Positions 1,582-45,237 of a stretch of DNA of 64,000 bases are shown here, in pieces. This stretch comes from Candidatus Magnetocorallium paracelense. Its GTDB lineage: Bacteria; Nitrospirota; Thermodesulfovibrionia; Thermodesulfovibrionales; Magnetobacteriaceae. Under the pieces are notes generated by a model. The model saw only the letters and a list, made by a program, of their open reading frames with translations, did not search any database and was not told the DNA's origin. The position numbers and the translations under genes are program-made. The stretch is taken from the NCBI GenBank assembly GCA_029001845.1, contig JAREWP010000020.1:1-64000 (forward strand), read 5' to 3'. Numbering within the stretch: position 1 is the first letter of the stretch; the number at the start of each line of letters is the position of its first letter.

Positions 1582-3138
1582 TCAATCCCTTCCCCATTGA
1601 TTGACAAAATCGTCATACGATATATAGAAGGCGTCACGAAATGCCTGATTAAGAGAGCGGGATTGGGATAACGACTCAAGAAGTCTTCGGATTCTGTACA
1701 TACCGTATTTTTCAACGAGATAAGTAACAGCGGAGTAACTTTCCATATATGCAAGTGATATCTTGTTTTTAGGAAGATTGAAAAAGGAGCCTTCCAGATC
1801 GGTAAGCGGTATGACCTGACCTGTTTTTTTTCTATCGGATTTTGACAAATATTCTGCCAACCCCTCGTTCAGCCATTGAGGACAATAGGGTGTCATTTTA
1901 TGTATAACAGCATGTGTATATTCATGGAAAATGGTCTTTCTGATACTTCTTTTGCTGACTCTTTCGATATCTTTAATAGGGATCCTGATCTTTCCGTCAT
2001 AAAGACCTCGGGTCCATTCAGGCGTTTCAGTGGCGCTATAAAATTTTCTGTCACTATAGAGTATCACGGAGAGAGGTACATCAGGGAAAAAATCGAGTTC
2101 TTTGCCTATTGTTCTGTATGCGTCCTCTAATATATCTATTACCATCCGGCCTGCGCTTCTGTGTTCGGCGCCGTCATAAATAAGAGTAAAATGGAGAGTG
2201 CTTACTTCTATAAAACCTTTATGGGCTACTGATTCGCGCTTAAGTTTATCATAGAGGGTATGCAACTCACGATCGTCCTTTACAGCCAAAGCGGCTTCCA
2301 CATGGGAGAGGCTTTTGTCGATATCATCTGTTTTATAATATGCAATCGCTGCATATTTATTTGCAATAAAATTCTCACTGTTATCTGCCAAAACGTTTGC
2401 AAAATAATCTATGGCGGCATTGTAAAATCCGAGTTTTAAATGGCATATCCCCAGACCAATAACAGCATCGGTGCTTTCACCCTCTATTTTTTTGAAAACA
2501 TACATTGCCCCATTATAATCGCCGTCATTCATCCTGTTATATCCCTCTCGGAGAACTTCCTTTACTCGATGCCTGCCTGTGTCAGGTTCCGATGTGAAAA
2601 CCGAGGCATTTTCTCTCTTTATATTATCTGTAATTTCTAAAAGTTTAATGAGATCGCTGTCTTCCTTTACAGCAAGAGCAGAAACGGCGTAAAAATTGCT
2701 GCTATCCATGTCGCCAATCCTGTAAAAGGAAAGAGAGAGGTACTTCATCGATAAAAAGTCGTTTCCATCCACTTCTAAAACCTTTTCAAGGGATGCGATG
2801 GCCTTTTCGTACTCTTCCGTCATAAAATAGGAAATACCCAATACCTGCAATGCTTTATAGTCGAAATCAACAAGACTTTCAAACAAAGGAATGGCGGATT
2901 CAAAATCCTTTTCATTAAATAAACCGACAGCCTTGTTGAAAAGCGCAATGTTTTCATTGTCACTCTCATTGATTACCGGCTCTTCGCTTATATCTACAGG
3001 TAATTCAACAGTCGATTGTCTGTCAACATCAGGAGTATGCGTCTCAGGTTTTTCAGCTGTTTGACGAGAGTAAAGATAGAAAACGAAGCAAACAGTAATG
3101 AAGAGTATGCTGTATGTTATAAATCTTCCTTTATTCAC
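1582..3138 (-). CDS. Membrane-anchored TPR protein with peptidase-MA-like zinc protease domain
   Basis: 518 residues. An N-terminal hydrophobic segment (residues about 8-25, FITYSILFITVCFVFYL) acts as uncleaved anchor or signal peptide. A linker and tandem TPR-like helices follow (about 60-300; for example the AIPLFESLVDFDYKALQVLG and AIASLEKVLEVDGN units). The C-terminal third carries HEYTH (about 402-406) and then NEGLAEY, the zinc-binding HExxH and downstream Glu of the gluzincin peptidase MA families. It is therefore probably a periplasm-facing protease or protease-like scaffold; the substrate is unknown. The start is a GTG with no strong Shine-Dalgarno. No same-strand partner is adjacent; repeat A lies upstream and the ATPase-PglZ gene diverges from it. 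Fold confidence is good; activity is inferred from the intact motif. Confidence 0.75.
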   Translation of the reverse strand: MNKGRFITYSILFITVCFVFYLYSRQTAEKPETHTPDVDRQSTVELPVDISEEPVINESDNENIALFNKAVGLFNEKDFESAIPLFESLVDFDYKALQVLGISYFMTEEYEKAIASLEKVLEVDGNDFLSMKYLSLSFYRIGDMDSSNFYAVSALAVKEDSDLIKLLEITDNIKRENASVFTSEPDTGRHRVKEVLREGYNRMNDGDYNGAMYVFKKIEGESTDAVIGLGICHLKLGFYNAAIDYFANVLADNSENFIANKYAAIAYYKTDDIDKSLSHVEAALAVKDDRELHTLYDKLKRESVAHKGFIEVSTLHFTLIYDGAEHRSAGRMVIDILEDAYRTIGKELDFFPDVPLSVILYSDRKFYSATETPEWTRGLYDGKIRIPIKDIERVSKRSIRKTIFHEYTHAVIHKMTPYCPQWLNEGLAEYLSKSDRKKTGQVIPLTDLEGSFFNLPKNKISLAYMESYSAVTYLVEKYGMYRIRRLLESLSQSRSLNQAFRDAFYISYDDFVNQWGRD

Positions 3139-3513: not shown

Positions 3514-3560
3514 AATTGACAATCGATAAATCGTCAATCGTCAATCGAAAATCGTCAATC
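3514..3560. repeat. Repeat D, upstream copy
   Basis: Degenerate tandem of the 7-mer AATCGTC / CAATCGA ending 5 bp before the ATG at 3566. Members of the same family follow the stop of this gene (8214-8240) and precede another start codon (43371-43498). Confidence 0.7.
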
Positions 3561-3565
3561 AAAAC

Positions 3566-6500
3566 ATGCAAACACTAAAGGACATCGCCACTATCCCCGA
3601 AGTAAAGCTCGTTATCGAACTTGACGACGCAGATAAGGACAGTGAAGGTATTACATCCACTTTCATCCTTACAAGAGAAGTGGAAGAGGGACTCCATACC
3701 ATATTGTCGTCAATAGATAAGCACAAGGGGTGTGGTATATTTATAAAAGGTAACTTTGGAAGCGGCAAATCTCACTTCCTCTCATACCTCTACCTTCTTC
3801 TGAAAAAGAGAGACCTCCCTGTCGTAAAAAAGTACAAGTCTCTTAAAAACAAAGAAATCAAGGCCCTTAAAATATCTCTCGTAAAATACCCCTCGTCACA
3901 GGGACTCGAGAAGATCGTACTCTCTGAAGCAGGTTATAAGGGAGATGTTGTAAACAGGGACGATATTTTTAAAGAGATAGTAGATTGTCCTGTTGTCATT
4001 ATCATCGACGAACTCTCTGAATTTCTACGTTCCAAGCCCGATAAGGCCTCTTTTTACGAGGATATCAGATTTCTCCAGTTCATAGGAGAATTCTCCTTTA
4101 CCAATCCGCTGTGGATAGTCGCCTCCCTGCAGGAGTGGATAGAAGAAACAGGGCATATCTCGTCAAGCATTTTTAACAGAATAAAGGACAGATTTCCCCT
4201 GCGGATCAATCTCAGTTCCGCCCATATTGAGGATATTATAGACGAGCGGATCGTATTAAAAAAAAGAGGCGCCGAAGAGGTTATGAAAGAGGTCTTTTCC
4301 GATTTAAAAACCCATTACGCCCACCTTCCTCTTAAATATGAAGAATTCAGAAAGACCTATCCCCTCCATCCCTTTACAGTGAGATTTCTGTCAGGCCTTA
4401 CCCAGGTCTTTTCCCAACATAGAGGCGTCATTCAGTTTGTATTCAATGAGACGAACAAAAAGCTCGAAGAACCTGTAGACTCTCTTATCACGCCGGAATC
4501 GATCTTTGACCACTTCGAGGACAGAATCAGAGAGATCCCTGAATTCTCTTCCCTTGTCAGAGTTGTATACGACTATTACAAAAGGCATATAGAAGAGATA
4601 ATCACAAAACCAACGCAAAGGGACCTCTGCCTCTCAACGGTAAAAATACTTATTCTCACGGAAGTTTCTCCCTTTGAAAAGAGAAAGAGCTCAAAGGATA
4701 TAGCGGAAATTCTGCTTAAAAAGATCAGCACCATCACATCGGATATCAATTACGAATTTATCAGAGACGCCATACTCATGCCCCTTGTTTCTCACCAGAT
4801 GTACATCAAAAGCGAAGGTGACTCCTATTTTATCGATCCCAATGTTGACGAAGGAATCAAAGTCAAAGCAGGAATCAAGAAAATGCGGGAGAAGCTGGAG
4901 GACAGAAACGTTCTCTTTTCCGAAATATGTAAAATTCTCGATCTCTCTTACCTGCCAATGGATACAATTATGGAAGGTAAGAAGTACTCCTTTCTCTGGC
5001 AGAACAGCCTGAGAGAGTGTGTTGTGCTGACAGCTTATCCGGACCAGATAAAACGCGACGAAATAGAGAGGATGATCAGGGGGATGGAGAGAAATCTGGA
5101 TGGTTTTTTTATTATTCTCTCTCCCTTTTTCGAAACAAAGGAGTGGATATTCTCATTAAAAGAGAGATATGCATCGAGTTTCCTCTCTTCCATGATCTTT
5201 TGGAGTCCCAGGCGCCCGACCGGTAAGGAGATTCTCTTCCTGGAAGAGTTTATTGCAAGAAATATGCTTTCCCACACCTACCCCGACCTCGGAAGCGAGA
5301 TCAGAAAGGATGAGATCGAATTTAGAGAAATTATGACAACCCTCTATTTCGAAGGAGAGATCATATACGGCATGGGCAATGTAGAGGACAATCTTTCGGA
5401 CATCGGATATCTTCCTATTCAAAAACTCCTTGCCCAACTCTTCGATATCTCATTAAAGGCCCTACATCCCAATCATGTAAAAATTATGCCCAAAGTGGAC
5501 TTCTTTTCTTCCCAGCACCTTCATTCCATGTTTAGATATTTTATCAAACAGGGCAGGATTTCGACTGAAGAGGCCGAACAAAAAGGGCTTATGCCTTATA
5601 TAAAGGGTTTAATAGAGCCAATGGGCGTAATTAAAAAGAGTTACCACACCATCATGGTCTTTATAGACGCCGGTAACGAACTGGTGTCCCACCTTTTGAA
5701 CATTGCCGCTTCAGAAGAGAAAATCACGAATATTAAACACACTCTAAAAAAGGGTAAATGGGGCATGGGAGAGGAACAGATCAATCTCCTCTTATCGATA
5801 TTTATTGTGACAGGTTATCTGGTCCCCTACAGAGAAGAAGAGTTGATGGATTTAAATGATATATCCCAACTAAGAAGCGGAGAGATTACAACGATCAAGA
5901 TCGGGAAAACCATATCTCAGGATCTGCTCGGTTATATAAAGCATGGTGAATTCATATGGGGAGAAGTGGAAGAGACCCCTACCCCGCTTACTCAAAAGGG
6001 AATGTGGAAAGAGGCGGTAAAGACGATCAAAAGGGGACGGGATTTCGTATCTGATATTTCGAAGTTTAGTGAAAATCACAGAACCTCTCCTGTTTTCAAG
6101 AAGTTACAAGTCAATTATTCAATAATAAACAGATTGGTGATGTTTTTTGACTCAATAACTTTTTCCCTCTCTCCTGCCGAAGGCGTGGAAAAAGTGCTTG
6201 CCTATATTAAAGGAAACAGAGAGATGGCCTACGATATCTCTTATATTGAAAAACTCCACTCTTTCCTGTCCGAGCATTTTCAGGATTTCGGTAAATTTTA
6301 TCTCTATATGACTCACACCTCTTTGCGCCTGCCGGAGGAGCTTGGGAACACCAGGGATTCCCTTGTAAAGAGAATGGAGAATTTTCTCGATACCATGGAT
6401 GACGAATTTACGGAATTAAAAGAGGAGTGGGATGTTTTTTTCGAGAGATTTTCTGCATTTTACAGAGAAGAGCACAACCTCTATTATCACTCTCCTTTAT

Positions 6501-8206
6501 TTGAAATCAAAAAAGATGTTATGTCCGCCCCGGAAATAAAGATACTGAAGAGTATCACTTCTCACGCTCCCACCGTAACCTTTGAGTGTGATTGGATAGA
6601 GATCAAGAGAGAGCTCGACAAGCTTCCTGCGAGATGTGGAAACGACATAAACTACGAGCTCTTTTTAAAACCTCTTTGCAGTTGTGGATTTAAACCGGGC
6701 GATGAAGCCCCGATCTGTCAAACCGATTTTAAGGCGCTTTGCAAAACCGGTATCGATGCTTTTCTGAAATCTCTGCAATCATCGGACAACAGAGATAAAC
6801 TGCTATCTTACGCTCATACCCTTAGGGACACTGACAGGAGCGATATCTCTGAAAAGATATTTTCTCTTTTGGAGCTGACGATAGAGGAAGCAAACATTCA
6901 ACTCCTGCCGGTTTTATTGACAGAAGAGGCGCTCAACGAAATCGAGAATGCCTTAAAGGGATCGTGGAAAATCAAAGAGGTGAAGATCGAGGAGTTTGTA
7001 GAGAGAATTACAGAGCGCAGATTTCGTTTTGACGAGCTGAAGGAGCTCTTTTTTAAATGGATCGGAGGGGACTCGGAGTCCATCATATGGATCAGGGATC
7101 GGAATCTCGGAGGTATTGTCTTTTTAAGAGAAGAGCTTGCCAGATACGGGTCCCAGGGCGAAAGAGTATACAGAGAACTTGGTGGTACGGACTTTGTGAG
7201 CGAGCCCGGAGATATTAATGAGGACTATCTAGAAGAGATAGAGGAGAGGCTAAAGGAAGAGGGGAAGTTAAGGGCCTTTGAAGCCATTAAATGGAGTTCC
7301 TTTTCCATGGAAGAGCTTTTTGCTCATCTTGAGAAAGAGAAACTGAAATATTTGAAAAAACGGCTCAGAGAGGAGATATTCCACAGGCTCCGCGGTAAGA
7401 TGATTGACAGAGAGAGGATTGTAAACGTTCATGACGAAACAATGAGAGATGTTCTGTCCCTTCTCCGATTAATTGCCGAAGAAGGCGCCTATAGCGGAGT
7501 TGAGGTCTTTACAAAAATAATTGCGCCTGCCGGTTATTTTATGGAAAGGATTAAATTCTCCCTTTCCACAGATGAAACCATATCCGGTCAAGTAATATCC
7601 TTGATGGAAGATGAGTTTTCCAATATTGTTAATTCCTTTGAAAAGGACAGCGAAAAATTTACCAAAGCCAAAGAGCTGGACGAAATAAGGGAGTGGCTTT
7701 CCGGAGTTGTCATTATACTGGACGGGCTCCGTTACGATCTCTGGATAATGATAAAAGAGGAGTTGGAGAGAGAGGGGTTCAGGATAAAAGATCGGCCCTA
7801 TATCATTCCGGCGCCTTCGGTTACTTCTAATTTCAGAAAAATATTGGGTATAGAGGGAGAAGGTTTTATAAACGGCAGGAGTTACACTTCTTTGACATGG
7901 GCCGAAAAAGGTATTACCAAGAGGGAGATAAAAAATTTTTTATACGGCACAGAGGAGTTAAGATTTCTTCATTTTAATTTTATCGATGTAAAAATGCACG
8001 CATCGTCCATAGATATCTACCCTCTCTATCTGATTATACTAGAAGAATTCAAAAAATCGATTCTTTCAATACTAAAAAACCTCCCCTCCTTCCAAATTAT
8101 CTCGGATCACGGTTTCAGAGACACCGGTAAGTTAAAGGAGAGATATGTTCACGGCGGTGGAACAATGTGGGAGGTTATTTTGCCGGCGGCAGAGGTGATC
8201 AGGTAG
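3566..8206 (+). CDS. BREX PglY/BrxC-like P-loop ATPase fused to PglZ domain
   Basis: 1546 residues. The N-terminus carries Walker A GNFGSGKSH (residues 62-70) and Walker B VVIIIDELSEFLRS (about 143-156), followed by a conserved IVASLQEWIEETG stretch. This matches the PglY/DUF6079/BrxC group of very large BREX-type ATPases. A Cys cluster (PLCSCGF and PIC, about 1037-1055) may bind zinc. The C-terminus is a PglZ (alkaline-phosphatase superfamily) domain: VVIILDGLRYD at about 1382, PSVTSNFRKIL about 40 residues later as the probable nucleophile region, and ISDHGF at about 1509 as the metal-binding DHG. In BREX phage defence PglY or BrxC and PglZ are separate proteins; here they form one chain. 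No methyltransferase, PglW, BrxA/B/L or helicase lies nearby. No clear Shine-Dalgarno is visible and repeat D abuts the ATG. Domain calls are strong; a defence role is inference. Confidence 0.85.
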   Translation: MQTLKDIATIPEVKLVIELDDADKDSEGITSTFILTREVEEGLHTILSSIDKHKGCGIFIKGNFGSGKSHFLSYLYLLLKKRDLPVVKKYKSLKNKEIKALKISLVKYPSSQGLEKIVLSEAGYKGDVVNRDDIFKEIVDCPVVIIIDELSEFLRSKPDKASFYEDIRFLQFIGEFSFTNPLWIVASLQEWIEETGHISSSIFNRIKDRFPLRINLSSAHIEDIIDERIVLKKRGAEEVMKEVFSDLKTHYAHLPLKYEEFRKTYPLHPFTVRFLSGLTQVFSQHRGVIQFVFNETNKKLEEPVDSLITPESIFDHFEDRIREIPEFSSLVRVVYDYYKRHIEEIITKPTQRDLCLSTVKILILTEVSPFEKRKSSKDIAEILLKKISTITSDINYEFIRDAILMPLVSHQMYIKSEGDSYFIDPNVDEGIKVKAGIKKMREKLEDRNVLFSEICKILDLSYLPMDTIMEGKKYSFLWQNSLRECVVLTAYPDQIKRDEIERMIRGMERNLDGFFIILSPFFETKEWIFSLKERYASSFLSSMIFWSPRRPTGKEILFLEEFIARNMLSHTYPDLGSEIRKDEIEFREIMTTLYFEGEIIYGMGNVEDNLSDIGYLPIQKLLAQLFDISLKALHPNHVKIMPKVDFFSSQHLHSMFRYFIKQGRISTEEAEQKGLMPYIKGLIEPMGVIKKSYHTIMVFIDAGNELVSHLLNIAASEEKITNIKHTLKKGKWGMGEEQINLLLSIFIVTGYLVPYREEELMDLNDISQLRSGEITTIKIGKTISQDLLGYIKHGEFIWGEVEETPTPLTQKGMWKEAVKTIKRGRDFVSDISKFSENHRTSPVFKKLQVNYSIINRLVMFFDSITFSLSPAEGVEKVLAYIKGNREMAYDISYIEKLHSFLSEHFQDFGKFYLYMTHTSLRLPEELGNTRDSLVKRMENFLDTMDDEFTELKEEWDVFFERFSAFYREEHNLYYHSPLFEIKKDVMSAPEIKILKSITSHAPTVTFECDWIEIKRELDKLPARCGNDINYELFLKPLCSCGFKPGDEAPICQTDFKALCKTGIDAFLKSLQSSDNRDKLLSYAHTLRDTDRSDISEKIFSLLELTIEEANIQLLPVLLTEEALNEIENALKGSWKIKEVKIEEFVERITERRFRFDELKELFFKWIGGDSESIIWIRDRNLGGIVFLREELARYGSQGERVYRELGGTDFVSEPGDINEDYLEEIEERLKEEGKLRAFEAIKWSSFSMEELFAHLEKEKLKYLKKRLREEIFHRLRGKMIDRERIVNVHDETMRDVLSLLRLIAEEGAYSGVEVFTKIIAPAGYFMERIKFSLSTDETISGQVISLMEDEFSNIVNSFEKDSEKFTKAKELDEIREWLSGVVIILDGLRYDLWIMIKEELEREGFRIKDRPYIIPAPSVTSNFRKILGIEGEGFINGRSYTSLTWAEKGITKREIKNFLYGTEELRFLHFNFIDVKMHASSIDIYPLYLIILEEFKKSILSILKNLPSFQIISDHGFRDTGKLKERYVHGGGTMWEVILPAAEVIR

Positions 8207-8213
8207 AATATTA

Positions 8214-8258
8214 TGATTGACGATTGTCGATTGACGATTTAGGAATTTAGGAATTTAG
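8214..8258. repeat. Repeat D, downstream copy, and AGGAATTT tandem
   Basis: GATTGACGATTGTCGATTGACGA-type 7-mers begin 8 bp after the stop of the ATPase-PglZ gene, inverted relative to the upstream copy. A tandem AGGAATTTAGGAATTTAG joins it to repeat B. Confidence 0.7.
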
Positions 8259-9568: not shown

Positions 9569-10081
9569 ATGCTTTGTCATCTTCTTATCTATGCTTGTGT
9601 CTTCCATGTTGGAAGTATTGGAAACAGTCATTCCATGGAAATCTTAAGAAAACTCGATCGGATTCTCATACTAAAGAGAGATGAAAGAAGTGACTTTCTA
9701 TACAACCCCACTCAAGAAGTTATAAAAGATTTTCAGCAAATTACTTTAAATGGAGTCGTTTATGAATATTACAGACCTAATAAAAAAGTTGATTTTTCGA
9801 TCGGCCCGGTCAATCTTTCAATCAGAAAGAGGGAGATTCTCTTTATTGCCGGAGGAAATGGAAGCGGAAAATCAACTCTTTTAAAAATTTTAACCGGTTT
9901 ATACACGCCATCAGTCGGAGGTTTTCAGATTGATAATAAGGATATTGCGATGCCGGAGCACAGGAATCTGTTTTCAGCAGTTTTTGAAGACTTTCACCTC
10001 TTTGACAGGCTTTACGGATTGGATAAAATTGATGAAAACGATATCTCTCGGTTGTTAATGCAAAAAAATGGGCCAAAGTGA
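9569..10081 (+). pseudogene. Truncated cyclic-peptide-exporter ATPase domain
   Basis: 170 residues resembling the nucleotide-binding domain of the next gene: SIGPVNLSIRKREILFIAG, Walker A GGNGSGKST and LFSAVFEDFHLFDRLYGLDKID. It stops before the LSGGQ signature, Walker B and H-loop. The expected N-terminal membrane domain is missing too: the first 30 or so codons are not family-like. It overlaps the start of the intact transporter by 14 bp. The simplest reading is a tandem pair of exporter genes in which a deletion removed the first membrane domain and the second half of its ATPase. It cannot hydrolyse ATP alone. Use as a short regulatory protein is possible but unsupported. Confidence 0.75.
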
Positions 10082-11657
10082 TTTGTTTACAAAGTTCAGA
10101 CAAAACCGTCTTCGACTGCTTACTCCCTTTATTTTAAGAGGATTTTTTGCAGCCGTTCTCGGTGTATCAATGATAGCAACGCTCTATGGCGCACTCGGTT
10201 TTCATCAGAATCAATCCAAAACCCGATACTTTATAATGTTCATATTGATGCTGGTATTATTTTTTATCGCTTACCGCCGTTTTCACTTGTTCGTGATTCA
10301 TTTTATTCAGGAGAATGTCGCAGAAATCAGACTGAATATTATGCGACGTGTCAGTAACATCGGACTGTTGGATTACGAAAAAATCGGATATGAAAAAGTA
10401 TATCTTGCTCTGATATACGATGAGAGATTCGTGTCTGAAATCTCTCAATATGCTGCATCTTTTTTGCTTTCGATCTGTGGTGTCATTACAGCTCATATCT
10501 GCCTCCTATATTTTTCTTTACCTGCCGGGATAGTGTCAATCATTGTTTACGGTACAGTCTGTGTCATATATGGATTTAACCAGGTAAAAATCACGGAAAT
10601 TCTCGAAGAGGTTAGATATGGAGAAAAGATATTTCTTCAATCTGTGAGGGATTTATTCGATGGATTTAAAGAGCTAAGATTAAATAATAAAAAAAGTGAT
10701 GATTTTTTTCACAGAGCTCTCATAGAGCATACATCACTGCTCAAAAAACAAAGAATCCGCTATCAGAATATTTTCATGAATAACTATTCCATGGCATACG
10801 GCCTGTTTAAATCACTGCTCATGCTGATGGTGCTACTTATTCCTCTTTTTGGTATTGCAACAGGTAATCTGGTGTTTACTCTGTTAGGCTTTTTATTCTT
10901 TATGCCCTATAGTGTTCTAATCGACAGAGTACCTGGTATCATACTGGCTTATCTTTCCCTAAAAAGACTCTTTGAATTGCACCGGGCTCTCGAGAATCTA
11001 AACCATGAAACCATCGCTCAGCCTCCGGAAGCAATTGATTTTAAACAACTCAGATTTAAGAATATCAAATTTTCTTATGGGAAAAGGGATTCATTCAACA
11101 TCGGCCCTCTGGATATGACAATCAACAAAGGAGAAATTATTTTTATTACAGGCAGTAACGGGAGCGGGAAATCTACCTTACTAAAACTGATCACCGGTCT
11201 CTATCCCCTTCAATCAGGCCAGGTTCTACTGAATCGCAGTGAAATTCAAATGAATGACTACCGCCATCTGTTTTCAGTGATTCATTCCGATTACCACCTT
11301 TTTATGTATCTCTACGGCATGGACAAAATAGACCATGAGCAGACGGAAGCTCTTATCGAGATAATGCAATTAAAGGGCAAAGTCAGGCTCGATGGGAACA
11401 AATTCAACACCCTTAAATTGTCGTCAGGTCAGAAGAAGAGGCTTGCATTAATTTCTGTATTATTGGAAAATAAGCCTCTTTATGTTTTTGACGAATGGGC
11501 TGCTGATCAGGATCCCTGTTTCCGGCAATATTTCTATGAGAGCCTGGTCCCTTCTTTCAAAGAGCAAAACAAAACAGTGATCGTAGTTACTCATGACGAC
11601 CGCTATTTGCATATTGCAGATCGGACGATAAAGTTGGAATATGGCAAAGTGTGTTAA
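10068..11657 (+). CDS. ABC transporter, cyclic-peptide-export (SyrD/PvdE) type
   Basis: 529 residues in the single-chain half-transporter layout. About six membrane segments fill residues 15-310, for example FFAAVLGVSMIATLYGA and ICLLYFSLPAGIVSIIVYG. A nucleotide-binding domain follows: Walker A GSNGSGKST at about 362, signature LSSGQKKRL at about 449, Walker B LYVFDEWAADQDP at about 472 and H-loop VVTHDDRY. FDEWAADQDP instead of LDEPTS is typical of the SyrD/PvdE cyclic-peptide and siderophore-precursor exporter family. It acts in the inner membrane as a dimer. No NRPS or peptide-precursor gene is adjacent, so the cargo is unknown. The ATG lies inside the upstream fragment and has no clear ribosome site, suggesting coupling. 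Its end overlaps the convergent lipoprotein gene by 4 bp. Confidence 0.88.
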   Translation: MGQSDLFTKFRQNRLRLLTPFILRGFFAAVLGVSMIATLYGALGFHQNQSKTRYFIMFILMLVLFFIAYRRFHLFVIHFIQENVAEIRLNIMRRVSNIGLLDYEKIGYEKVYLALIYDERFVSEISQYAASFLLSICGVITAHICLLYFSLPAGIVSIIVYGTVCVIYGFNQVKITEILEEVRYGEKIFLQSVRDLFDGFKELRLNNKKSDDFFHRALIEHTSLLKKQRIRYQNIFMNNYSMAYGLFKSLLMLMVLLIPLFGIATGNLVFTLLGFLFFMPYSVLIDRVPGIILAYLSLKRLFELHRALENLNHETIAQPPEAIDFKQLRFKNIKFSYGKRDSFNIGPLDMTINKGEIIFITGSNGSGKSTLLKLITGLYPLQSGQVLLNRSEIQMNDYRHLFSVIHSDYHLFMYLYGMDKIDHEQTEALIEIMQLKGKVRLDGNKFNTLKLSSGQKKRLALISVLLENKPLYVFDEWAADQDPCFRQYFYESLVPSFKEQNKTVIVVTHDDRYLHIADRTIKLEYGKVC

Positions 11658-43370: not shown

Positions 43371-43498
43371 GATTTTCGATTGACAATTGACTATTGTCGA
43401 TTGGCTATTAATAATATATTGAAGTCTGTCAATCATCAATCATCAATCATCAATCATCAATCATCAATCATCAATCGTCAATCATCAATCGTCAATCG
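43371..43498. repeat. Repeat D, long tandem array
   Basis: Irregular ATTGAC/GATTG units (43371-43426), then about ten near-perfect tandem CAATCAT/CAATCGT 7-mers (43427-43498). The array touches the stop codon of the upstream gene and reaches within 6 bp of the next start codon. Confidence 0.85.
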
Positions 43499-45237
43499 CC
43501 ATTCTTCCTCAGCTTCAATGCTTCCAGCAAAACAACGGACAACGATTCTATCGCTTCCTGATCGTTCATACTATACCCCCCCTCTTTATTGGCTAAACCG
43601 ATCATTCCCACTGTTTTATCTTCATACTTCAAAGGAACTCCCATAAAGGAAGTAAGAGGCGGATGACCGACAGGGAGCTCAACATGATCGGGATGATTCC
43701 GTATCGCCTCCTCACCGTTTACGATACGTGATTTTCCTTCCATCATCGTTGCGCGATCAACACCGCGCACAGGCATATTCCTAATAATAAAAGACGCCTC
43801 ACCCCTGGGAACATTACACTTCTCCCAGCCCGGATTACTGATGGCGATCGTATCAAAGGCGCCTTTGCTGTTCAACTCGCCGATAAAACCGAATCTGCTT
43901 TCTGTAATCTTCTCAGCCACCTGAAGGCACTTCAGACCAGTTTCCTCGTAAGATTTCGATTTCAATGCCTCCCTTAACACCATATTAATGCCATCGAGAA
44001 TGGCGTTTCTCTCTCTGACCTCTTGTTGGAGTTTTTCTTTCTCTTTTTTAAGCTCCGGGGCTGTCATTTTCATTGCCAGCTTAAGACTTACCAATATCCT
44101 GTCAAAAGCCATGGATAAATCACCAACTTCATTCTGTAACGACTTTATTTTAGGATTAATTTCTACGTTTAAATCGCCTTTTGAAATGGCTTCAACAGTA
44201 TTACTAAGGTCTTTTAAAGAAATATTGAAGTTCCTGAATAGTCTTAAAGGATAGAAGAGAGTGAAAAAAAGTGTCACAATCGATAAAAGAACAAGATACC
44301 TGTTTATTTCATGGATAACATATTCTCCTTTAATGGCAAAAACTGTTATAAGTAAAATAATGGTTACAATCGTGATTGAGGCGAAACCTAAAAATAATCC
44401 CCACCCAAATGAAAGGCGATACTCAGATGCAAAAGTCTCCTCGCCAATATCCTTTGCTATAAAAGAGAGGGCAAAAGCAAAGTAAGAAAGATTCTTCAAT
44501 ATATGGGCAAGGTTAAAATGAGCATCGAAAATATCGGTGGACTCCATCATAAACACACCTGCAAAAATACCGGAAATAAAAGAAAGTAAAAGCAGTGTAC
44601 CGTTGAGGCCCATGAGCCTCAATCTCTTAAAATAGAAAAGTAAAGCAACAAATAAAGGTACAATGGCTAACAACTCGTATGGTCTGTGCAAAAAATGAGG
44701 CGCCTCAGGTAATATGAATTTCGGTATGGGAAAAAGAAGGATAATGGTCGTGAAAGCGAGAAGGAGTAACGAAGCGGGAGCAAGATGGATTATGAAGATT
44801 TCGCTGCTGTTTTGCCTGTGGATATGTGACGGCCTTTTAAAGAGAGCCAAAAAAAAGAAGATTGCCAGAAACATTCTCCCCACAGTCCATGTGGCAGGGA
44901 TGAAAACGGATTGTCCTGATGTAGGTTTTCCAAAAAAATCTATAGATGCAAAAGAGTGAATAATATCTACTATGCCGTTTATAAAAAAAGCCAGGCCAAT
45001 AAACATGTAGAAAGAAGAGCCTGTGAGCTTAAGTTGTCTTACAGCGGCAAGCCCGGCCAGAGTCGCCAATAATACGCCGACTAACTCAAGCCAAAAGTGG
45101 GCGCTCTTGTTTTCAAGAGTGTGAATCCGTAGAGAATCGGCAAAAACAAGACAAATTGTGAGTAAAAAGGTAAGAGAAAAGGCTGATATTATATTTATCT
45201 GTAAATTGTCGCATCTTTGAATGTTTTTTTCAAACAT
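43492..45237 (-). CDS. Seven-helix membrane sensor with HAMP and GAF_2, no output domain
   Basis: 581 residues. About eight hydrophobic helices fill residues 15-320 in a MASE3-like arrangement (FFINGIVDIIHSFASIDFFG, TWTVGRMFLAIFFFLAL). HAMP (about 330-385), a coiled coil (about 395-425), and a GAF_2 domain to the end (RGVDRATM, GVPLKYEDKTVGMIGLANKEGG). The same GAF_2 occurs inside the kinase at 22937-26257, where a further GAF and transmitter follow. Here the protein ends RKNGD and its TGA is supplied by the first unit of the repeat D array. It may be truncated by repeat insertion or may signal through the REC-kinase next door. GGGAGGG precedes the ATG. Confidence 0.82.
   Translation of the reverse strand: MFEKNIQRCDNLQINIISAFSLTFLLTICLVFADSLRIHTLENKSAHFWLELVGVLLATLAGLAAVRQLKLTGSSFYMFIGLAFFINGIVDIIHSFASIDFFGKPTSGQSVFIPATWTVGRMFLAIFFFLALFKRPSHIHRQNSSEIFIIHLAPASLLLLAFTTIILLFPIPKFILPEAPHFLHRPYELLAIVPLFVALLFYFKRLRLMGLNGTLLLLSFISGIFAGVFMMESTDIFDAHFNLAHILKNLSYFAFALSFIAKDIGEETFASEYRLSFGWGLFLGFASITIVTIILLITVFAIKGEYVIHEINRYLVLLSIVTLFFTLFYPLRLFRNFNISLKDLSNTVEAISKGDLNVEINPKIKSLQNEVGDLSMAFDRILVSLKLAMKMTAPELKKEKEKLQQEVRERNAILDGINMVLREALKSKSYEETGLKCLQVAEKITESRFGFIGELNSKGAFDTIAISNPGWEKCNVPRGEASFIIRNMPVRGVDRATMMEGKSRIVNGEEAIRNHPDHVELPVGHPPLTSFMGVPLKYEDKTVGMIGLANKEGGYSMNDQEAIESLSVVLLEALKLRKNGD

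Follow-up and report, generated by a model that had tools for sequence, protein, structure and literature searches.

The BREX proteins BrxC and PglZ are normally separate and occur together with a DNA-marking enzyme. The window analyzed here, a stretch of 64,000 nucleotides at the start of contig C16 of the source genome (G000; 6.0 Mb, 99.6% complete), raises the question of whether one of its genes truly joins the two proteins in a single chain, and what such a protein might do. The gene (3566..8206, + strand), present in a single copy and with an ATG start, is intact and forms one open frame of 1546 codons, as the preliminary description had stated; upstream of it the contig ends after only 3.5 kb. 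The predicted domain order is a BrxC part from residue 1 to approximately residue 1167, a linker (residues 1181-1375) and a PglZ core (approximately residues 1376-1546), and comparison of each part with known families confirms that the 1546-aa product is a real BrxC-PglZ fusion at the level of sequence.

Residues 1-365 (3566..4660, + strand) are predicted from profile matches to form an AAA+ ATPase domain of the BrxC/DUF6079 type. The Walker A (GNFGSGKS, residues 62-69; 3749..3772, + strand) and Walker B (VVIIIDE, residues 143-149; 3992..4012, + strand) motifs, which had been noticed in the preliminary description, are conserved (the latter as IIIDE) in all six homologues that hold the region. 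The N-terminus matches Pfam DUF6079 at 7.9e-25 (87 bits versus a gathering cut-off of 23), NCBIfam BREX_BrxC at 1e-25 and PADLOC BrxC at 1.3e-20, and the AAA+ domain aligns with BREX-3 BrxC at 1.8e-18 over 357 columns (hhalign). At the level of such profiles the BrxC/DUF6079 identity of the N-terminal half is beyond doubt; of the label PglY/BrxC-like, which this ATPase had been given, the BrxC part stands and the specific assignment to PglY (NCBIfam PglY, 1.2e-6) does not. The collinearity of profiles extends through residues 366-1167 (4661..7066, + strand), predicted to comprise the remainder of BrxC, a winged-helix/alpha-beta region and a coiled coil. A profile built from seven fusions aligns collinearly with a haloarchaeal BrxC over residues 5-83 and again over 142-1055; profiles of segments 366-800 and 780-1110 alone match haloarchaeal BrxC at 2.2e-6 and 3.5e-8, against 0.44 or worse for reversed or shuffled controls; and BrxC homology runs to approximately residue 1167 (hhalign 6e-5 for residues ~1023-1167). 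At the tip of the coiled coil, a cluster of cysteines that is invariant in seven homologues (C1024, C1038, C1040 and C1059; 6635..6742, + strand) likely binds zinc. The motif there is C-x13-C-x-C-G-F-K-P-G-D in the fusion and C-x13-C-x2-C-x-F-K-P-G at the equivalent position of BREX-3 BrxC, and the pattern C-x13/14-C-x1/2-C is common to the fusion, BREX-3 BrxC and haloarchaeal BrxC. By these alignments the N-terminal part is a whole BrxC with its coiled coil, not an ATPase alone. Its nearest BrxC/DUF6079 relatives in BREX, those of BREX-3 and of a haloarchaeal plasmid, have the AAA+ domain, middle region, coiled coil and cysteine cluster in common with the fusion at ~23-28% identity, whereas the fusion adds a linker and a PglZ domain and has no BREX gene alongside.

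The linker (7106..7690, + strand) matches no family, is largely helical in a low-confidence model and is the fastest evolving part of the protein (omega 0.14-0.22). The putative PglZ core that follows (residues 1376-1546; 7691..8203, + strand) matches PF08665, PADLOC PglZ and PorX. Matches of the whole protein to PglZ models are weak (NCBIfam, 5.6e-4; PADLOC, 3.9e-4), and the window protein scores 17.1 bits against PF08665, under the gathering threshold of 25. The C-terminal domain alone matches PF08665 in 7/7 members of the fusion family (best 0.001) and PADLOC PglZ in 7/7 (best 1.8e-5). Weak NCBIfam matches within the family are to PglZ_1_B in 5/7, PglZ_3 in 2/7 and PorX in 2/7. The search of both halves against family profiles that the preliminary description had proposed as a check thus gave strong DUF6079/BrxC matches at one end and PglZ matches in every member at the other. 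When the C-terminal profile was compared with all PDB sequences, PorX-type response regulators came first (E 0.006), and three blocks appear in order in this match (LRYD...T, NFxDxxxH and YxHGGxS..E..xP), which bears out the PglZ signature blocks that had been read at the C-terminus. Seven predicted zinc ligands (D1386, T1420, D1474, H1478, D1514, H1515 and H1529; 7721..8152, + strand) are invariant in seven homologues and correspond in order to those of PorX-Fj (D237, T271, D360, H364, D414, H415 and H499; PMC10951265), with identical D-T (34), D-H (4) and D-H (1) spacings. T1420 and H1529 are the counterparts of T538 and H741 of Escherichia fergusonii PglZ, which have been probed by mutation, T538 being required for nicking (PMC12205998). 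The alkaline-phosphatase-type motif blocks and seven zinc ligands of BREX PglZ and PorX (PF08665) are therefore also found in the fusion, but the N-terminal half of PglZ is missing and the cap insert is reduced: 14 residues separate the DH pair from the last histidine, a distance that is 84 residues in PorX-Fj and ~75-80 residues in six PglZ proteins from the class. The C-terminal domain is thus predicted to be a cap-less PglZ core with a complete two-zinc active site. Because AlphaFold2 models of residues 1-815 and 781-1546 from four sequences were poor (pLDDT 45 and 51; pTM 0.32 and 0.30), the PglZ fold is a prediction from sequence; Foldseek with the 781-1546 model (pLDDT 51) returned noise only.

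Homologues were sought in GTDB (by 8-mer scan), in all 230 genomes of the class, in a sample of the phylum, and in phage, plasmid and viral collections. Full-length homologues (46-54% identity) are encoded by six other genomes of the class, which brings the carriers to 7/230 genomes in four families, and the two halves are fused in all seven, although the copy in G205 reads as two overlapping ORFs. No full-length homologue was found outside the class in the phylum sample (396 genomes), and no homologue of the fusion in the phages or viral contigs searched. The relatives of G000 with named records are Nitrospirota/Thermodesulfovibrionia MAGs; within its own family the fusion is present in 1/19 genomes and absent from the other 18, where a look for the empty site found no counterpart of the downstream neighbor at E <= 1e-30. 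Since the carriers span four families while most of their relatives do not have the gene, it is considered accessory.

None of the homologues adjoins a BREX gene at the loci of the carriers, and, to the extent that this was checked, the earlier statement that the 64 kb contain no other BREX gene is correct, the contig starting 3.5 kb upstream. The preliminary description had reasoned that homologues always found beside full BREX sets would make this an ordinary BREX variant; because no homologue is so placed, the fusion is not one. Throughout G000, no PF08665 match over the cut-off, no BrxB (PF08747) and no BREX-1 PglX were found, and no methyltransferase was recognized beside the window gene. 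Of the components of BREX, PglZ (as a fused domain) and a BrxC/PglY ATPase are present; BrxB, and BrxC and PglZ as separate proteins of one locus, are absent, and neither PglX/BrxX nor its Type-4 alternative, phosphorothioation genes, was recognized at the locus. As described in a survey of BREX (PMC12839542), BREX-Related Capture (BRC) systems resemble the fusion in combining a BrxC-type ATPase with PglZ outside canonical BREX, but are made of separate genes with a HerA/FtsK translocase in every case, whereas the fusion is one chain and no HerA/FtsK translocase occurs among the window neighbors examined. The survey also describes Type-3 BREX-Related (BR) systems, in which, as in the window protein, a BrxC-like ATPase is accompanied by a PglZ that carries no extra fusions, and DUF499, methyltransferase and helicase are encoded by separate genes; the ATPase of the fusion, in contrast, is DUF6079, not DUF499, and its PglZ is fused. 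In the BrxC-BrxB:PglZ core complex (PMC13326643) the ATPase is physically joined to the nuclease, as in the fusion, but through BrxB instead of by a covalent, C-terminal connection. Neither a BrxC-PglZ fusion nor the TPR partner discussed below is reported in the literature searched, including the available part of the survey (PMC12839542).

The suggestion that the fusion is a one-gene system is probably wrong, because a TPR protein of ~307 aa co-occurs with it in 6/7 carriers, sometimes in an operon and sometimes unlinked. With the best 10 candidates per genome scored, this protein was found at E below 1e-20 in 6/230 genomes of the class, all of them fusion carriers, and was not found among the best 10 candidates of the seventh carrier, G221. 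The TPR gene overlaps the fusion gene in an operon in two genomes, upstream in G182 and downstream in G015; in G223 the two are ~4 kb apart, with the TPR gene upstream; in G194, G205 and G000 they are not linked, the TPR gene of G000 (52% identity) being on contig C39 and overlapping a downstream gene for an 889-aa regulatory protein with a response-regulator-like start. The naive hypergeometric probability of this co-occurrence, 3.6e-11, is inflated because the carriers share ancestry, and the correlation of pairwise identities between the fusion and the TPR protein (r = 0.90) may reflect species distance alone. The argument for a functional pair is that the operon occurs in two opposite orders and that the co-occurrence extends over four families, and of the candidates for a sensing or controlling role the TPR protein is the best. 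Two other candidate partners were rejected. A TPR-peptidase gene upstream of the fusion in the window (1582-3138) has, in its TPR region, 34% identity over 77 aa, compared to 52% over the full length for the true orthologue. A SWIM-zinc-finger SNF2 helicase of 819 aa, encoded near the fusion in G223 and G221 (L005:4088-6547 and L004:1317-3776) and represented in G000 by just a 39% paralogue, is present in at least 11 genomes without a full-length fusion, amid other genes.

In the presence of ATP, BrxC of BREX binds double-stranded DNA; BrxB is bound by the AAA+ domain of BrxC and connects it to PglZ (PMC13326643). BrxC also forms dimers and larger assemblies (PMC13326643, PMC12205998), and PglZ is a metal-dependent nicking nuclease inhibited by ATP (PMC12205998). 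Homology predicts that the fusion binds DNA as an ATP-dependent assembly to which the nuclease is tethered, with no need of BrxB as a bridge. On a narrow balance of probability, the favored reading is that the fusion derives from the BREX core but works without a methyltransferase: an assembly that binds DNA under the control of ATP would bring along a metal-dependent nuclease of its own, and the TPR protein would be its partner. The sequence basis for it consists of the architecture, the complete set of catalytic residues, purifying selection, loci that lack BREX partners, and the co-occurrence of the TPR protein. Using its winged-helix region and coiled coil, the BrxC part would oligomerize with ATP on DNA; the TPR protein would bind as a sensor or adaptor; the act of assembly would free the two-zinc PglZ domain; and the open, cap-less site of this domain would cut or nick a phosphodiester of nucleic acid. 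With the nuclease domain as the covalent tail of the ATPase, BrxB and the N-terminal half of PglZ would therefore be gone, and the fusion suggests that the cap and N-terminal half of PglZ are dispensable. The role of the fusion may be in defense. Since no methyltransferase lies alongside, discrimination of self from non-self would rest on a cue other than BREX methylation, such as a phage protein or a state of the DNA. The more specific proposal of a two-component, methyltransferase-free immune system that arose by collapse of the BREX core and answers to such a cue is made tentatively, its probability being put a little below even. If the fusion does defend the cell, BREX methylation is not required for a BREX core to distinguish invader from self; and a covalent BrxC-PglZ protein that selection maintains with neither BrxB nor a methyltransferase encoded next to it would be a compact single-chain pair, amenable to testing.

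The main rival to a defensive BREX derivative is a PorX-like role in signaling or in DNA repair, in which the ATPase would bind chromosomal DNA, the PglZ domain would hydrolyze a nucleotide or oligonucleotide in regulation or repair, and the TPR protein would be a scaffold. Ordinary cellular neighbors at most loci, PorX as the nearest solved relative of the PglZ domain, the overlap of the TPR gene of G000 with the gene of the 889-aa regulatory protein, and unlinked TPR partners, which fit a chromosomal function, all point in this direction. Such an enzyme would be expected less readily from a distribution as patchy as 7/230 genomes and 1/19 in its own family, which is typical of accessory genes, and those separate relatives whose surroundings were read sit mostly in BREX loci; a housekeeping or signaling function is thus considered unlikely, albeit to be taken seriously. 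Much less probable is that the fusion is a remote accessory lending its activity to BREX genes elsewhere in the cell. Two carriers could accommodate this arrangement, G194, which also encodes BREX-1 (BrxB, PglX and PglZ on one contig), and G223, which has BrxB and PglZ-like fragments elsewhere in its genome, but canonical PglZ, BrxB and a BREX-1 PglX-type match are absent genome-wide from the other five of the seven, G000 included. That the gene is a functionless product of BREX decay or of misassembly is scarcely credible. The copy in G205 consists of two overlapping ORFs and G204 retains a stretch of only 48 residues, but the other five of the six homologues are unbroken and of near-equal length, the frames being intact (1545-1571 aa) in six genomes from four families with invariant catalytic residues. 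In two pairs of close homologues, omega (dN/dS) is 0.06-0.22 for every segment, so that all parts are constrained, the linker and PglZ domain included, and decay is refuted for the fusion family.

A possible origin of the fusion is indicated by plasmids. Searches of 72,556 plasmid records (7.3 Gb) with the N- and C-terminal parts meet at one record, Halorarius halobius NZ_CP101162: the C-terminal 207 residues returned only this BREX locus, and among seven DUF6079-type matches to the whole protein it has the highest identity (28%). The locus encodes, in this order, a methyltransferase, BrxA, a hypothetical protein, BrxC (1301 aa) and PglZ (726 aa), with brxC and pglZ (L131:7983-14071) as separate genes two bases apart in the order of the fusion. 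In a small-database comparison, this PglZ is 35% identical to the window PglZ domain over 57 aa (1e-6). The Halorarius pair is the closest separate brxC/pglZ pair found, and because the two genes adjoin in fusion order, the simplest inference is that the fusion arose from neighboring brxC and pglZ genes and that pglZ was trimmed afterwards. The Halorarius locus has a metallophosphoesterase gene downstream, and its BrxC is annotated merely as hypothetical.

The genes around the fusion in the window have ordinary cellular functions and do not form a defense island. Tandem arrays of the heptamer ATCGTCA in inverted orientation flank the gene (3518-3560 and 8213-8239), stopping right before the start codon and beginning right after the stop codon. 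A repeat-bracketed mobile cassette was considered and rejected: the exact 18-mer ATCGTCAATCGTCAATCG has 104 copies in intergenic arrays of the G000 genome, often at the 3' ends of genes, and in 15 regions that were sampled only one further gene is bracketed by the repeat. Being scattered through the genome, the inverted heptamers are not taken to indicate mobility. A further ATCGTCA array lies at 43381-43501 of the window. Toxin-antitoxin-like genes, DUF4143 ATPases or an IS element are located near some homologues of the fusion; a Phd/ParE-like toxin-antitoxin pair, recognized by eye, adjoins one (L003:6526-7191), and two DUF4143 AAA ATPases adjoin another (L004:3859-6404), the first of which matches PADLOC PDC-S01 at 9.9e-82. 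On another contig of G223 (C299), a weak BrxC-like AAA+ match (L022) is followed after ~2 kb by a PglZ-like ORF with SDHG and HGG motifs (L073), possibly as part of a BREX-related system. Downstream of the fusion in the window there are two overlapping ABC-transporter frames (9569-11657), of which the upstream one (170 aa) resembles, in truncated form, the ATPase domain of the downstream 529-aa protein.
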